From Lawsonibacter sp. (GTDB lineage: Bacteria; Bacillota; Clostridia; Oscillospirales; Oscillospiraceae), in NCBI GenBank assembly GCA_022791995.1, contig JAAWAD010000005.1, positions 1-58,934 of the forward strand: 58,934 nt of DNA, given 5' to 3'. Within the stretch, counting starts at the first letter, position 1. The number at the start of each line of letters is the position of its first letter. Made by a program: the position numbers and the translations under genes. The notes beneath the pieces are model-generated. The model ran no database searches. It had not been told where the DNA came from and saw nothing but the letters and a program-made list of their open reading frames with translations. Shown in pieces: positions 45,576-50,298 of the stretch.

Positions 45576-47057
45576 TCAATCTAAGGCAACTGTTCTGGTG
45601 GCAATAGCCTCCTGAAAGGCCTGGTCATGCTCCACAAAGACCATGGTAGAGCTGAAATCCGTTAAAAGCTGCTCCAGCTGGAGCCGGGAGTAGATGTCAA
45701 TATAGTTCATCGGCTCATCCCACAGGTACAGATGGGCCTCCTCGCACAGGCTCTTTGCCAGGTATACCTTTTTCTTCTGTCCCCAGGAGAAGTCTGCCAT
45801 ATCCTTTTCAAGCTGGCCGCGGGAAAAGTCCAGCTTCCGCAGGATGGTCTTGAATCGGGTCTCGTCCAGATGGTGCTCTGCGGCAAAGTCCTCCAGTGAG
45901 CCCTGGAGGCCGGAGGGGTCCTGGGGTACATACGAGATTTGCAGCCCTGAAGCCAGGCGAACCTGCCCGGTGTGGTCCAAGGGGCGGCCCAGCAGAAGCT
46001 GGAGCAGGCTGCTCTTCCCGCTGCCGTTCCCGCCGGTAAGGGCCAGCCGCTCCCCCTGCTCCAGGGTGAAGGAGACCGGCGGACATACCGGCCGGCCGCT
46101 GTAGTACACGGATACCTCTGTAAAAGCAGCCAGCGTGCGGCTGTGGTGGGACAGGGGGGTCAGCTTGAGCGAGTCTGCCCGCTCCGTGTTTTTCAGCAGG
46201 GCGGATTTTTCCTGGATCGCGCTCTGCTGCCGTGTCTCCAGATTTTTTGCCCGCTGCATCATCTTGGCGGACTTGTGGCCGAGAAAGCCCCGGTCCGGCC
46301 GCAGACCGGAATTTCGGGAGCCATACTTGCGCTGCTCTACCTTGTCCGACCAGCTGGAGGTCCGCCGGACTGCCTGCTCTAGACGGCGGATTTCCCCCTT
46401 CAGCTTCTCGTTTTGGGCCTGCTCCAGGTCCTGCTGGCGCTGGAAGTTCTCCAGGAAAGAGGAGAAAGTGCCTCTCTGCACCTGGATATCGGCCCGGTTC
46501 AGCGACAGAATATGATCCACACAGCCATCCAGGAAGCGGCGGTCGTGGGACACCAGAATAAAGCCCCTTTTCCGCCGTAAATAAGCGGACAGCAGGGCCC
46601 TTCCCCGCTGGTCCAGATGGTTGGTGGGCTCGTCAATCAGCAAAAAGTGTCCCCGGTTAAGGAACAGCGCCGCCAGCAGCACCTTGGTCTGTTCCCCGTT
46701 GGACAAGGTGTCAAACCCGCGCCACAGCACCCCGGCATCCACCTCCAGCAGGGACAGCTCCCGCAGCAGCTCCCACTCCTCCGCCTCTGGACAGACTTCC
46801 TGTAAAATGTCCCCCGTCCATCGGATCCGATCTGTCACCGGATAGGGGAAGCAGTCAAACTGCACTGAAGCTGTAATTCGGCCGCTGTACGGGTACTCTC
46901 CCATTAAAAGCCGGAGAAAGGTTGTCTTGCCCCGTCCGTTCCGGCCCACAAAGCCCAGCCGCCAGTCGGTGTCGATCTGAAAGCTGGTCCCATCAAAGAT
47001 GGTATCCTGTCCTCCGGGGTAGGAAAAGGTCAGGTTCTCCACTTGAATCATTGACAT
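45576..47057 (-). CDS. ABC-F ribosomal protection protein, Lsa/CplR-like
   Basis: A 493-residue soluble protein with two ABC ATPase domains and no membrane segments. Walker A sites: GRNGRGKTT and GGNGSGKSS. Signature motifs: LSNGEQTK and FSWGQKKK. Walker B: LLIDEPTNHLD and LYLWDEPMNYIDI. The linker between domains (about 190-270) is long and charged, as in antibiotic-resistance ABC-F proteins. DWRLGFVGRNGRGKTTFLRLLMGEYPYSG and LWDEPMNYIDIYSR.QLEQLL are closest to the Lsa/CplR group, which protects ribosomes from lincosamides, streptogramin A and pleuromutilins. Resistance here is inferred. GGAGGT lies 6 nt before the ATG. Its leader carries a short peptide gene and hairpins. Confidence 0.9.
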   Translation of the reverse strand: MSMIQVENLTFSYPGGQDTIFDGTSFQIDTDWRLGFVGRNGRGKTTFLRLLMGEYPYSGRITASVQFDCFPYPVTDRIRWTGDILQEVCPEAEEWELLRELSLLEVDAGVLWRGFDTLSNGEQTKVLLAALFLNRGHFLLIDEPTNHLDQRGRALLSAYLRRKRGFILVSHDRRFLDGCVDHILSLNRADIQVQRGTFSSFLENFQRQQDLEQAQNEKLKGEIRRLEQAVRRTSSWSDKVEQRKYGSRNSGLRPDRGFLGHKSAKMMQRAKNLETRQQSAIQEKSALLKNTERADSLKLTPLSHHSRTLAAFTEVSVYYSGRPVCPPVSFTLEQGERLALTGGNGSGKSSLLQLLLGRPLDHTGQVRLASGLQISYVPQDPSGLQGSLEDFAAEHHLDETRFKTILRKLDFSRGQLEKDMADFSWGQKKKVYLAKSLCEEAHLYLWDEPMNYIDIYSRLQLEQLLTDFSSTMVFVEHDQAFQEAIATRTVALD

Positions 47058-47078
47058 ATCTGCACCTCCGAAATCACA

Positions 47079-47137
47079 GCGGGGCGCTCCCCCCGCGCTC
47101 GGAACGCAAAATGACCGCAGGAGGTTCCTTCCCGCGG
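47079..47137 (-). promoter_or_regulatory. Hairpins between the leader peptide and the ABC-F start
   Basis: Two stems of the leader RNA. One has DNA arms at 47115-47122 and 47130-47137 (8 bp with one G-U in RNA) followed by UCAUUUUG, a possible intrinsic terminator. The other has arms at 47079-47084 and 47091-47096 just before the ABC-F ribosome site. They are candidates for the attenuator switched by the leader peptide. Confidence 0.55.
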
Positions 47138-47270
47138 CCTGTCACAGCAGAGCGGACTGCCCCCCTTGAGGGCAGCCAGACATCTTTGCATGGAGCGGTC
47201 AGATGGATTTCCTTCCTGCAATGGGCGCAACGGTCCCCTCAGCACAGGGCGCCGCCTTGCGTTCCACTTC

Positions 47271-47294
47271 TTATTTGCAGGAATTGATGCGCAT
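47271..47294 (-). CDS. 7-residue leader peptide upstream of the ABC-F gene
   Basis: On the minus strand, ATG at 47294 opens the peptide MRINSCK, stopped by TAA at 47271. A very good ribosome site, AAAGGAGT (47301-47308), sits 6 nt before it. The bases coding SCK (47275-47283) are exactly complementary over 9 bp to a segment 54 nt downstream in the leader (47213-47221). Short leader peptides with such pairing are typical of antibiotic-induced attenuation of ABC-F and erm genes. A stalled ribosome here would break that pairing. Confidence 0.75.
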   Translation of the reverse strand: MRINSCK

Positions 47295-47325
47295 CTTCCC
47301 ACTCCTTTCATTATCATTTGAAGTG

Positions 47326-47354
47326 AGAATAGCATAGCCTGACAAAAATGTCAA
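47326..47354 (-). promoter_or_regulatory. Promoter of the ABC-F transcription unit
   Basis: On the minus strand: consensus TTGACA (47349-47354), 17-bp spacer, TATTCT (47326-47331). It gives a leader of about 260 nt before the ABC-F start. TGACA/TGTCA forms a short inverted repeat within it. Confidence 0.82.
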
Positions 47355-47493
47355 GTGTATTCTGCGTTATCCCCGGCAGCTTATCACATCAGAGAAAATT
47401 GCGGAAAACAGGGGTAAAAACCCTTGCATTGTACCATACTCTTCTGTAGACCGCCCAAGCTGTGAAATCAGAATCAAAGGAGGCCACCGGAAC

Positions 47494-48516
47494 ATGAAAC
47501 CGCTTCGTACCGCTGCCGCCATGCTGTGCTCGCTCCTTCTGCTGACCGCCCTCTCCGGGTGTGCGCAGGGCGGCAGGCGCATGATACGCATCGGGCACAA
47601 CCAATCGGCCGATCACCCGACCAACCTGGCGCTGCTTGCGTTTGAGGCACATATTGAGGCCGCGCTGGGCGATCGGTACGAGGTAGAGGTATACCCCAGC
47701 GAGCTGTTGGGCTCTCAGACGGACATGGTTCAGCTGACCCAAACCGGGGCCATTGACTTCTGTGTTGCCAGCAACTCGATTTTAGAGACCTTTTCCGAGC
47801 GGTACACCCTGTTTAATCTGCCCTATCTCTTCGTCTCCAGAGATGCCTACCACCAAGCCATGGACGACCCGGAGATCACCCGCCCCATCTTTTCCTCCAC
47901 CCGGCAGGCCGGCTTCGAGGCCGTAACTTGGATTGACGCGGGGACCCGGAACTTCTATACGGTCAGTACCCCCATCCAGTCTCCCGCTGACTTGAAAGGC
48001 CTGAAGATCCGTGTGCAGCAGTCCCCAACCAACGTGACCATGATGCGTCTGCTGGGGGGCTCCGCCACCCCCATGGGCTTCGGTGAGGTCTATACCGCGT
48101 TACAGTCCAAGGTGATTGATGGGGCGGAGAATAACGAGCTGGCCCTCACCTCGAATGGGCATGGGGATGTCTGCAAATACTACTCCTACGATATGCACCA
48201 GATGATCCCGGACATTCTGATTGGCAACTGTGATTTTCTGGACAGTCTGTCGGAGGAGGAGCGGGCCGTGTTTGAGGAGGGGTTTCAGCTGGTCAACAGC
48301 GTGGAGCGCCAGGAGTGGGATAAGGCGGTGGATGCGGCTAAGGAGCGGGCAGAGAATCAGCAGGGCGTCACTTTCCTCTACCCGGACGTTCAGCCCTTCC
48401 AGACCATCTGCATCCCCATGCACCAGGATCTGCTTGACGACTGCCCTGACCTGGTCCCAATCTATGAGGGCATCCAGCGCTGGAACCGCCAATATCCCCA
48501 GAAAGGAGAGCAATAA
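47494..48516 (+). CDS. dctP: TRAP transporter solute-binding lipoprotein (DctP family)
   Basis: A 340-residue extracytoplasmic binding protein. It has a type II signal peptide with LSGC (lipid Cys about residue 23), then the DctP fold: IRIGHNQSADHP, EVYPSELLGSQTDMVQLTQTGAIDFCVAS, DLKGLKIRVQQSPTNVTMMRLLGGSATPMGFGEVYTALQSKVIDGAENN. Its conserved Arg in KIRVQQ pairs with the carboxylate of the ligand, so an organic acid such as a C4-dicarboxylate or sugar acid is likely. AAAGGAGG precedes the ATG. First gene of the TRAP operon. Confidence 0.94.
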   Translation: MKPLRTAAAMLCSLLLLTALSGCAQGGRRMIRIGHNQSADHPTNLALLAFEAHIEAALGDRYEVEVYPSELLGSQTDMVQLTQTGAIDFCVASNSILETFSERYTLFNLPYLFVSRDAYHQAMDDPEITRPIFSSTRQAGFEAVTWIDAGTRNFYTVSTPIQSPADLKGLKIRVQQSPTNVTMMRLLGGSATPMGFGEVYTALQSKVIDGAENNELALTSNGHGDVCKYYSYDMHQMIPDILIGNCDFLDSLSEEERAVFEEGFQLVNSVERQEWDKAVDAAKERAENQQGVTFLYPDVQPFQTICIPMHQDLLDDCPDLVPIYEGIQRWNRQYPQKGEQ

Positions 48517-48519
48517 GCT

Positions 48520-48996
48520 ATGTACGCACTTCGCACGCTTCTGACCCGTCTGCTGAACCTTCTGGCTGGATGCAGCTTTCTGGTGATGGTCAGTCTGACC
48601 TGCTGGCAGGTCTTTACCCGGTATATCCTGGAAAACCCCTCCTCCTGGTCGGAGGAGCTGGTCTCCTGCATGTTTGCCTGGATGAGTCTGCTGGGGGCCT
48701 CCATTGTCACCTCGGAAAGGGGGCACATGAATATCCCGATTCTGGCCGATATGGCCAGACCGGGGCTGAGAAAGCTGCTGCGCTGTCTGGGAGAGGCCAT
48801 CGCCTTTCTGTTTTCCCTGGTGATTCTGGTCTTTGGCGGAACACAGATTACGAAGCTGGCGATGGGGCAGATGACCTCCTCTCTGGGGGTTCCCATTGGG
48901 GTTTTTTATGGGATCCTTCCCCTGTGCGGCGTTTTGAATCTGGTGTTTACCCTGACAAATATCATCCATATTCTGAAGAACACGGAGGCAGCGTAA
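48520..48996 (+). CDS. dctQ: TRAP transporter small permease subunit (DctQ family)
   Basis: A 158-residue membrane protein with four hydrophobic segments. SLTCWQVFTRYILENPSSWSEELVSCMFAWMSLLGASIVTSERGHMNI is the DctQ signature. It stabilises the large permease. The gene begins 3 nt after dctP and ends directly before dctM, so the three are co-translated as one transcript. Confidence 0.94.
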   Translation: MYALRTLLTRLLNLLAGCSFLVMVSLTCWQVFTRYILENPSSWSEELVSCMFAWMSLLGASIVTSERGHMNIPILADMARPGLRKLLRCLGEAIAFLFSLVILVFGGTQITKLAMGQMTSSLGVPIGVFYGILPLCGVLNLVFTLTNIIHILKNTEAA

Positions 48997-50298
48997 ATGG
49001 CAATCCAATCCCTGTTCCTTATTTTGGTCGTCCTGCTGGTTCTGCTGGCGCTTGGAGTCCCCATCGCCTATTCCATCGGCATCGCCGCCCTGGTGGCCAT
49101 TCTGCCTACCATGCCTTTACGGGTATCGGTGGTCACGGCAGCCCAGCGCACATTTGTAGGCATGAGCAGTTTCAGCCTTACGGCCATCCCCTTTTTTATT
49201 TTGGCCGGTAACCTGATGAACCAGGGAGGAATTGCCAAACGGCTGGTGGATTTTGTCCTTGCACTGCTGGGAAAGCTGCCTGGGGCGCTGCTGGTCACCA
49301 ACGCCGGAGCTAATGCGCTGTTTGGGGCCATCTCCGGCTCTGCATCTGCTGCTGCGGCGGCGGTGGGCAGCATGGTCCGGGAGGGCGAGGAGGAGCAGGG
49401 CTATGACCCGGCCCTCTGCGCAGCCACCAACGGGGCCTCCGCCCCCTCCGGTCTGCTGATCCCGCCATCCAACGCGCTGATTACCTACTCCCTGGCCTCC
49501 GGAGGCACTTCTGTAGCCGCGCTGTTTCTGGGGGGCTATGTGCCAGGCCTGCTGTGGGCCCTCTTCTGTATTGTGGTGGGCGTTATCCTGGCCATGGAGA
49601 AGGGCTACCGGGGCACGCCGAGCCGGTACGATTGGGGCGGCTTGGGCTGCTGCACCCTGAAGGCCATCCCCGCCTTATCCCTTATTGTGGTGGTCATCGG
49701 CGGTATTGTAGGGGGAATTTTTACTGCCACGGAGGGATCGGCCATTGCGGTGGTCTATGCGCTGCTGCTGGGCATCTGTTACCGGAATATCACATGGAGT
49801 TCCTTCTGGAATATTGTAGTGGACAGCGCCAAAATGAGCGGGATGGTGGTTTTCCTCATCGGAGTTTCCAACATTCTGGGCTGGGTGATGTCCTTCCACC
49901 AGATTCCTCAGGCGGTATCCGCCGCTCTGTTGGGGCTGACAGAGAACAAATACTGGATTCTCCTCCTGATGAACGGCATCCTCCTGGCTGCGGGGACCTT
50001 TATGGACGTTACCCCCGCCATCCTGATTTTTACGCCCCTGTTTCTGCCCATTGTCAAAACCTTTGGAATGCACCCGGTCCATTTCGGTCTGGTTCTGGTC
50101 TATAATCTGTGTATTGGAAACATTACACCTCCTGTGGGCAACACCCTTTTCGTATCCATCAAGGTGGGGCGGACCACGCTGGTCAGGACCCTTCCCTATA
50201 TGCTCTGGTACTATGCGGCCATTCTGGTTGGTCTGATGCTGGTGACCTATGTGCCTGTTTTGAGCTTGGGGCTTCCGTCGCTGGCCGGTCTGCTGTGA
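48997..50298 (+). CDS. dctM: TRAP transporter large permease subunit (DctM family)
   Basis: A 433-residue permease of about twelve membrane segments that moves the solute with sodium ions. Motifs GNLMNQGGIAKRLVDF, NALFGAISGSASAAAAAVGSMV, ATNGASAPSGLLIPPSNALI and FMDVTPAILIFTPLFLPI are those of DctM. It starts in contact with dctQ. The transported acid cannot be fixed from the sequence. The operon lacks the usual two-component or GntR regulator next to it. Confidence 0.95.
   Translation: MAIQSLFLILVVLLVLLALGVPIAYSIGIAALVAILPTMPLRVSVVTAAQRTFVGMSSFSLTAIPFFILAGNLMNQGGIAKRLVDFVLALLGKLPGALLVTNAGANALFGAISGSASAAAAAVGSMVREGEEEQGYDPALCAATNGASAPSGLLIPPSNALITYSLASGGTSVAALFLGGYVPGLLWALFCIVVGVILAMEKGYRGTPSRYDWGGLGCCTLKAIPALSLIVVVIGGIVGGIFTATEGSAIAVVYALLLGICYRNITWSSFWNIVVDSAKMSGMVVFLIGVSNILGWVMSFHQIPQAVSAALLGLTENKYWILLLMNGILLAAGTFMDVTPAILIFTPLFLPIVKTFGMHPVHFGLVLVYNLCIGNITPPVGNTLFVSIKVGRTTLVRTLPYMLWYYAAILVGLMLVTYVPVLSLGLPSLAGLL

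Follow-up and report, generated by a model that had tools for sequence, protein, structure and literature searches.

Attenuators with short upstream open reading frames (uORFs) precede the ABC-F genes vmlR and cplR and the Streptomyces genes are5sc/tiaA, and such drugs have been reported or proposed to act there on ribosomes at the uORF start codon or close to it (PMC9226507, PMC10201436, PMC12421871). For vmlR and cplR, induction is stated there to require translation of the uORF (PMC9226507, PMC10201436). The consensus sequences listed for ABC-F uORFs in PMC10201436 are MIN, MR[I/M], MK[L/Q] and, for LsaA, MAGN, none of which is the Ser-Cys (‘SC’) form described here.

The leader considered below lies ahead of an Lsa-like ABC-F gene of Lawsonibacter sp., in contig JAAWAD010000005.1; ‘the window’ denotes the whole stretch of 58,934 nucleotides that was analysed. 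It is likened to the vmlR leader of Bacillus subtilis by layout, since both have an ABC-F gene, a short uORF within stem-loop 1, further hairpins, an intrinsic terminator and a hairpin that sequesters the Shine-Dalgarno (SD) sequence. However, the vmlR uORF is MIN, of three codons (PMC9226507), whereas the uORF of the Lsa type generally extends across the pairing segment, with Ser-Cys at its end. The cplR gene of Clostridioides difficile is likewise a clostridial ABC-F gene with its uORF in a 5′ hairpin, and the combined transcriptional and translational attenuation ascribed to its leader is counted here as a likeness, but it is of the ARE1 rather than the Lsa type and its terminator stem itself contains the SD sequence (PMC10201436). 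The truncated uORFs MRK, MRN and MR of some Lsa relatives look like the cplR consensus MR[I/M] given in the same source (PMC10201436). The leader of lsa(A) in Enterococcus is likened by its uORF alone: a short uORF precedes an Lsa-type gene, as in the window, but the consensus listed for homologues of at least 80% identity, MAGN, differs from the MRINSCK of the window (PMC10201436).

Two closer comparisons come from the loci collected for this work (numbered with the prefix L). The lsa(E) gene of enterococcal plasmids (L143) has the same leader as the window, with the uORF MYNFSC, stem-loop 1 and a terminator, but the uORF is of the SC and not the SCK form and the protein is 55.9% identical. 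The proteins of lsa(B) and its relatives (L142, L144, L009) are nested among those of the SCK-type genes, but their leaders give no match at E 1 to the covariance model R1 described below and have a longer uORF with the motif TH..L[RC]I or one close to it. In erm leaders, the nascent chain itself is the arrest motif. The macrolide arrest motif of the erm type is given as Arg/Lys-x-Arg/Lys in PMC10314930, and MRINSCK is without it. Neither an SC-form uORF consensus nor an attenuator of lsa(E) was found described in open-licence full text, which is weak evidence given that scope; of six uORF strings sought there, only ‘misasc’ was matched, as the start of longer words. The layout of this leader is that of a known kind of ABC-F attenuator; its reach is wider than first thought, and its family separates the peptide from the RNA.

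Results

The product of the gene would be a resistance-type ABC-F protein by its score against NF000355 (472 bits; cut-off 380). Its top PDB match is LsaA (E 1.7e-124), and it scores 714.7 bits over positions 1-492 against the NCBIfam Lsa profile NF000167, below the curated cut-off of 750; by profile, the gene is Lsa-like and is not filed as Lsa under that cut-off. At 45576-45579, the stop codon overlaps a possible TTG start of the next ORF on the same strand, of 2434 aa (45579-38275). A divergent set of three ORFs on the plus strand (47494-50298) looks, from reading it, like a TRAP-type transporter. A 95-codon ORF on the minus strand (47335-47048), in another frame, spans the whole leader and begins before the predicted transcript start; it was not taken as a gene.

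The features of the locus are collected in Table 1. The sequence-only reading had claimed a promoter, a leader of about 260 nt, an SD-led peptide MRINSCK and a 9-bp exact complement, and all of these are confirmed on the minus strand, with the ABC-F start at 47057. The promoter has 10/12 matches and is the sole promoter-like site in 46500-49500, where shuffled sequences average 1.2, a background at which one such site carries no significance by itself. Among relatives, 90 of 131 distinct upstream regions have a site with at least 9/12 matches, against 13.3% of shuffles, and in 74 of those 90 the -10 element ends 25-34 nt ahead of the uORF start. It is on this conserved position in relatives that the significance of the putative promoter rests.

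Table 1. Features of the ABC-F gene and its leader in the window
Feature	Position	Strand	Basis
Promoter, TTGACA (47354-47349), 17-nt spacer, TATTCT (ending 47326), with TG before the second hexamer	47326..47354	minus	pattern scan
uORF Shine-Dalgarno sequence, AAAGGAG	47302..47308	minus	sequence
Stem-loop 1	47192..47305	minus	fold, covariation, model R1
uORF MRINSCK, 7 codons (ATG CGC ATC AAT TCC TGC AAA TAA), containing segment 1, TTCCTGCAA (47283-47275)	47271..47294	minus	sequence and relatives
Segment 2, TTGCAGGAA, pairs with segment 1	47213..47221	minus	complementarity and covariation
Stem-loop 2, 10 bp	47155..47177	minus	predicted fold
Terminator-like hairpin (segments 3 and 4) and tail ATTTTGCGTT	47103..47139	minus	scan, covariation
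Hairpin over most of the ABC-F SD (47069-47065)	47059..47110	minus	predicted fold
Lsa-like ABC-F gene, 493 aa	45576..47057	minus	profile and PDB matches

Segments 1 and 2 are exact reverse complements, 53 nt apart. At least 8 complementary bases running through the Cys codon occur in 33 of 83 real leaders, against 1.2% of shuffled downstream regions. The window leader folds with z = -4.62, a value as low being reached by none of 200 shuffles, and stem-loop 1 also includes the uORF SD and start codon (GGAGTGG:CCGCTCC and AGATG:CATCT). Past the uORF stem lie three hairpins and not the two that had been claimed, though the two in question, one with a U-rich tail and one at the ABC-F SD, are both present. 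The terminator-like hairpin itself occupies 47139-47113; its tail is a short U run, and its 3′ arm, CCTCCTGCGGTC, resembles segment 1. In the predicted fold, four of the five bases of the ABC-F SD have an unpaired probability of 0-0.22 and the fifth one of 0.94; the hairpin that covers them is not conserved in the alignment of 20 SCK leaders described below. A terminator pattern scan gave 7 hits against a background of 2.9, only moderately higher, and an Rfam scan of the window at the gathering score gave no matches.

Loci of relatives were drawn from genome contigs (80 of 166 relatives) and from same-family genomes, 55 of 200 of which had a match at E 1e-50; 30 of these loci were taken and stretches from 24 more of the same genomes added. 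An SD-led uORF of 4-14 codons ending in Cys, or in Cys and one further residue, was found at 81 of the first 107 loci with at least 300 nt upstream. In 20 mononucleotide shuffles such uORFs numbered 5.15 on average and never more than 9, and the opposite strand had 2. The enlarged set held 134 Lsa loci, of which 3 had too little upstream DNA; the remaining 131, which include the window’s own locus and some near copies, comprise 64 of SC type, 28 of SCK type, 15 with a uORF of 2-3 codons and 24 in no class, at one of which (L030) MISASC was found further upstream. A uORF of 5-7 codons ending Cys or Cys-Lys/Arg is thus present at 92 of 131, a count in which conservation of Cys and frame is partly built in, since the filter demanded Cys near the end, and in which near relatives are counted repeatedly. 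Removal of leaders at least 85% identical left 87 of the 107 classed leaders (51 SC, 22 SCK and 14 truncated). Some hairpin of at least 6 pairs with a T-rich tail occurs in 74 of 83 leaders, a count without a shuffle control, and in at least 5 of the 74 (L059, L080, L082, L087, L112) the listed hairpin differs from the conserved one.

Covariation was followed in an alignment of 20 SCK leaders, for which the stems were drawn by hand from these same sequences and the shuffles are uncorrected for relatedness. Unguided, RNAalifold recovered the inner stem between the uORF and the downstream segment, the apical stem and the terminator. In the named stems, among them the base of stem-loop 1 with the SD and start codon, the paired share of cells is 87.6%, and two-sided changes are seen in 13 of 35 pairs (50 such cells, against 12-16 in slid versions). 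The column pair 31:99 is UA in 11 leaders, CG in 8 and UG in 1; since column 31 falls at the third position of the codon that precedes Cys, this change is silent in the peptide. When pairing was scored over 11 nt without gaps, 50 of 129 distinct SC/SCK leaders reached at least 8 (1.7% of shuffles) and 36 of 129 at least 9 (0.26%); at a cut-off of 4 the leaders (126/129) hardly differ from shuffles (88%). The search for exact complements under-counts pairing of the SC type, in part owing to G-U pairs and bulges, and the relaxed score has a high background. The comparison of related leaders that had been proposed as a check finds the uORF conserved among Lsa relatives, together with its predicted pairing to a downstream segment, with compensatory base changes, and the putative terminator.

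The consensus of the terminator 3′ arm, TTTCYTGC..., is a near-copy of the uORF segment, so that segment 2 can also pair with the terminator loop and 3′ arm (‘2:4’ pairing). The 2:4 pairing is available in 97.2% of cells over 9 core pairs and 87.8% over 14, and the duplex energies in the window are -16.7 (2:4), -14.2 (1:2) and -18.3 kcal/mol (3:4). This pairing follows in part from the likeness of segment 4 to segment 1, and its covariation is mixed, some measures being reached by 1-2 of 500 shuffles and others by 60-316. When the window leader was folded with a ribosome-sized block over either the start codon or the codon for Cys, the terminator was still the best structure and the SD was still covered, so a switch would need co-transcriptional kinetics.

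The covariance model R1 represents stem-loop 1 of the same 20 leaders, the window sequence included. In its own genome at E 0.01 it matches 47189-47310 only, and it matches 31 of 77 hand-picked loci (of 146), none of which was used in building it, at E <0.01. At E 0.01 or better, matches were found in 35 of 300 genomes of the family, 36 of 295 of the order and 20 of 398 of the phylum; the samples overlap, the 84 distinct genomes include its own and at least 12 that supplied rows for the model, and the fast filters used in these searches lose weak matches. By tblastn, an Lsa stretch aligned from residue 1 is present at 39 of the 43 order and phylum R1 loci taken up, which do not represent every match, and absent at 4 (L195, L199, L219 and L222). 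Of 13 further R1 stretches, 12 have an lsa match and one, L177, has none; L177 lies at a contig end, as does L178, whose match is just 53 residues long. Genes other than lsa were sought behind the leader in the inspected R1 loci, and no clear second target gene was found.

The 31 include lsa(E) on the Enterococcus faecium plasmid pY13 (L143, E 5.2e-8), a sequence not in the model, where the uORF reads ATG TAT AAC TTT TCT TGC TAA. A 399-base stretch with this leader has matches in 111 plasmid records, of which 106 are from Enterococcus and 102 match over 80% or more of the stretch, and the nearest locus to lsa(E) in the tree is L197, from another family of the phylum, with 95% identity over 419 columns. 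The peptide and structure had been thought specific to the lineage of the window; this is refuted, since the leader occurs across the Bacillota genomes that were sampled and on the lsa(E) plasmids of enterococci.

Several loci are unusual. At L195 and L199 (about 1501-1750), an intact-looking leader is followed by the first codons of lsa alone, and at L219, which looks decayed, by an internal lsa stretch only; these are probably leader remnants after loss of lsa. At L222 (1631-1340, minus strand), a leader with the uORF MIYVSC and a strong terminator-like hairpin has a very short ORF behind it and, beyond that, a gene for an ABC exporter; it may be what is left of an lsa locus or a switch put to new use. 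Tandem leaders precede lsa at L188 (3340-2960, minus strand) and also at L178, an MINFSCK attenuator being followed by a second uORF. In L188, this second uORF, read by eye, is MNSADQIVTHDSLRIVSVPFGEIYT; it is similar to the uORF of the lsa(B)-type leaders (L142, L144, L009) and has what we take to be a resemblance to macrolide-type leader peptides. At L024, the R1 match (1813-1936, E 3.4e-6) lies ~560 nt upstream of the lsa start, far beyond the distance in other leaders. Near-identical Lsa proteins with the same leader type occur at L092, L095, L186 and L209, which belong to several genera and, in part, to a second family of the order, a pattern that would be expected from recent transfer. 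By contrast, the copy in G039, a genome of the same genus as the window, is only 52% identical and has the uORF MRNTSC (L138).

The codons for the conserved Ser-Cys(-Lys) are the very ones that pair, and the leaders with truncated uORFs bear on which of the two, peptide or RNA, is conserved. In 11 of these 15 leaders, the motif T[CT][CT]TG[CT] lies untranslated at AUG+14 to +17, and in L123 at +19; L091, L114 and L126 have no match to it. In L127, L180 and L207, an in-frame stop lies ahead of TCC TGC. Since 11 of 15 truncated-uORF leaders keep the paired motif just past the stop, conservation looks to be mainly at the RNA level. Elsewhere, Cys is changed to Arg with the pairing retained (L064: uORF segment TTCTCGC, partner GCGGGAA, terminator arm TTTCTCGC) or with one mismatch kept in the partner (L026), and the uORFs of L134 and L135 run through segment 1 in a different frame. 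On a FastTree tree of 162 Lsa proteins, the truncated-uORF label (13 rows, the motif being required nearby) changes 8 times, at least 6 of them by starred branches, with gains and losses not distinguished and some long branches in the tree.

The residue before Cys in 129 distinct uORFs is Ser in 102, Thr in 11 and Ala in 9 (122/129). In 20 leaders with a scored partner this codon begins with a base other than T (8 of them form one MRKTTC/MRNTTC group), and in 14 of these 20 the pair at that base is broken. Leaving Ser and Phe aside, the residue is Thr or Ala in 20 of 22 cases and never Pro. This preference, with broken pairs and without Pro, leaves room for some selection at the peptide level. 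Cys is encoded by TGC in 128 of the 129 uORFs, Cys itself being required by the filter. We regard the Ser-Cys(-Lys) residues as mainly a by-product of RNA pairing.

Discussion

The leader is probably a ribosome-sensing attenuator of the Lsa-like ABC-F gene, in which a drug would stall the ribosome near the uORF start. Without drug, a ribosome would complete the uORF and segment 1 would pair with segment 2; the terminator (3:4) would then form and few transcripts would reach the ABC-F gene. A peptidyl-transferase drug would hold the ribosome at or near the uORF start, where its footprint would mask segment 1. Segment 2, left free, could then pair with the terminator loop and 3′ arm (2:4), and RNA polymerase would read through. 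For the window gene, the extra hairpin over the SD may add translational control. The sequences show the parts, their conservation and their covariation; the stalling, the drug class (lincosamide, streptogramin A or pleuromutilin), the role of 2:4 as antiterminator and the readthrough are what we infer. Against this reading stand the blocked folds that keep the terminator, the short U tract of the window, the modest share of leaders with a high ungapped pairing score, the mismatch in L026, the 24 of 131 loci in no class and the mixed covariation of 2:4.

The sequence-only reading had likened the locus to the ribosome-stalling attenuators of erm as well as of ABC-F genes. The attenuator layout is supported by the conserved and covarying uORF, pairing and terminator; the erm-like reading of the peptide is not, as the Arg/Lys-x-Arg/Lys motif is lacking, the paired motif is kept untranslated in 11 of 15 truncated leaders and L064 has lost the Cys codon. 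In a leader specific for the peptide, a chain ending Ser/Thr/Ala-Cys before a stop or a Lys/Arg codon would be the arrest motif, as in erm leaders. The uORFs that read through segment 1 mostly have Ser-Cys in frame, and the residues found before Cys are of the set that favours arrest by chloramphenicol and linezolid when at the -1 position (Ala, less so Ser and Thr), according to PMC8987054. The Thr and Ala codons that are used despite breaking a pair, with no Pro among them, also point this way. However, Lsa(A) is reported to give no rise in the chloramphenicol or linezolid MIC (PMC8987054); the constancy of Cys and frame is partly a product of the uORF filter and of counting near relatives many times; and the eight changes of the truncated label mean that the segment persists in leaders where the peptide is now present, now absent. 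With the silent-site covariation at 31:99, the retained pairing of L064, the other frame of L134 and L135 and the untranslated motif of the truncated leaders, arrest by the peptide alone was demoted and is considered unlikely. Stalling at or near the start codon, as reported for the vmlR, cplR and are5sc/tiaA leaders, fits better, but the peptide may be under some selection as well.

A leader indifferent to drugs, in which the uORF only couples translation to transcription and senses, for example, translation rate or amino acid supply through the Cys codon, would account for the near-constant TGC. But truncated uORFs have no Cys codon, nearly all inspected R1 loci have lsa or its remains downstream, and the described ABC-F leaders are drug-sensing, so this is very improbable. 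That the hairpins arose by chance in a G+C-rich intergenic region has in its favour the promoter scan at background (1 against 1.2) and the terminator scan moderately above it (7 against 2.9). This explanation, to which we give almost no credence, is refuted by the covariation in 20 leaders and by the R1 matches in 31 loci, from sources and genomes outside the model set.

A further reading is a doubly coded switch. The same ~nine bases would act as the pairing element, with a copy in the terminator 3′ arm, and would also encode Ser/Thr/Ala-Cys followed by a stop or Lys/Arg codon, a codon pair adapted to drug-dependent arrest while the ribosome terminates or nears the end of elongation; where the peptide has been lost, arrest would revert to the start codon. 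We hold this to be rather unlikely. If true, it would mean that a wider set of drugs is sensed.

The leader family ties the plasmid-borne lsa(E) of enterococci to attenuators spread through Clostridia and other Bacillota, which suggests that the lsa gene and its switch moved together. Because related leaders differ in whether they translate the paired codons, the family also provides a natural test that may separate reading of the peptide from stalling at the start codon.
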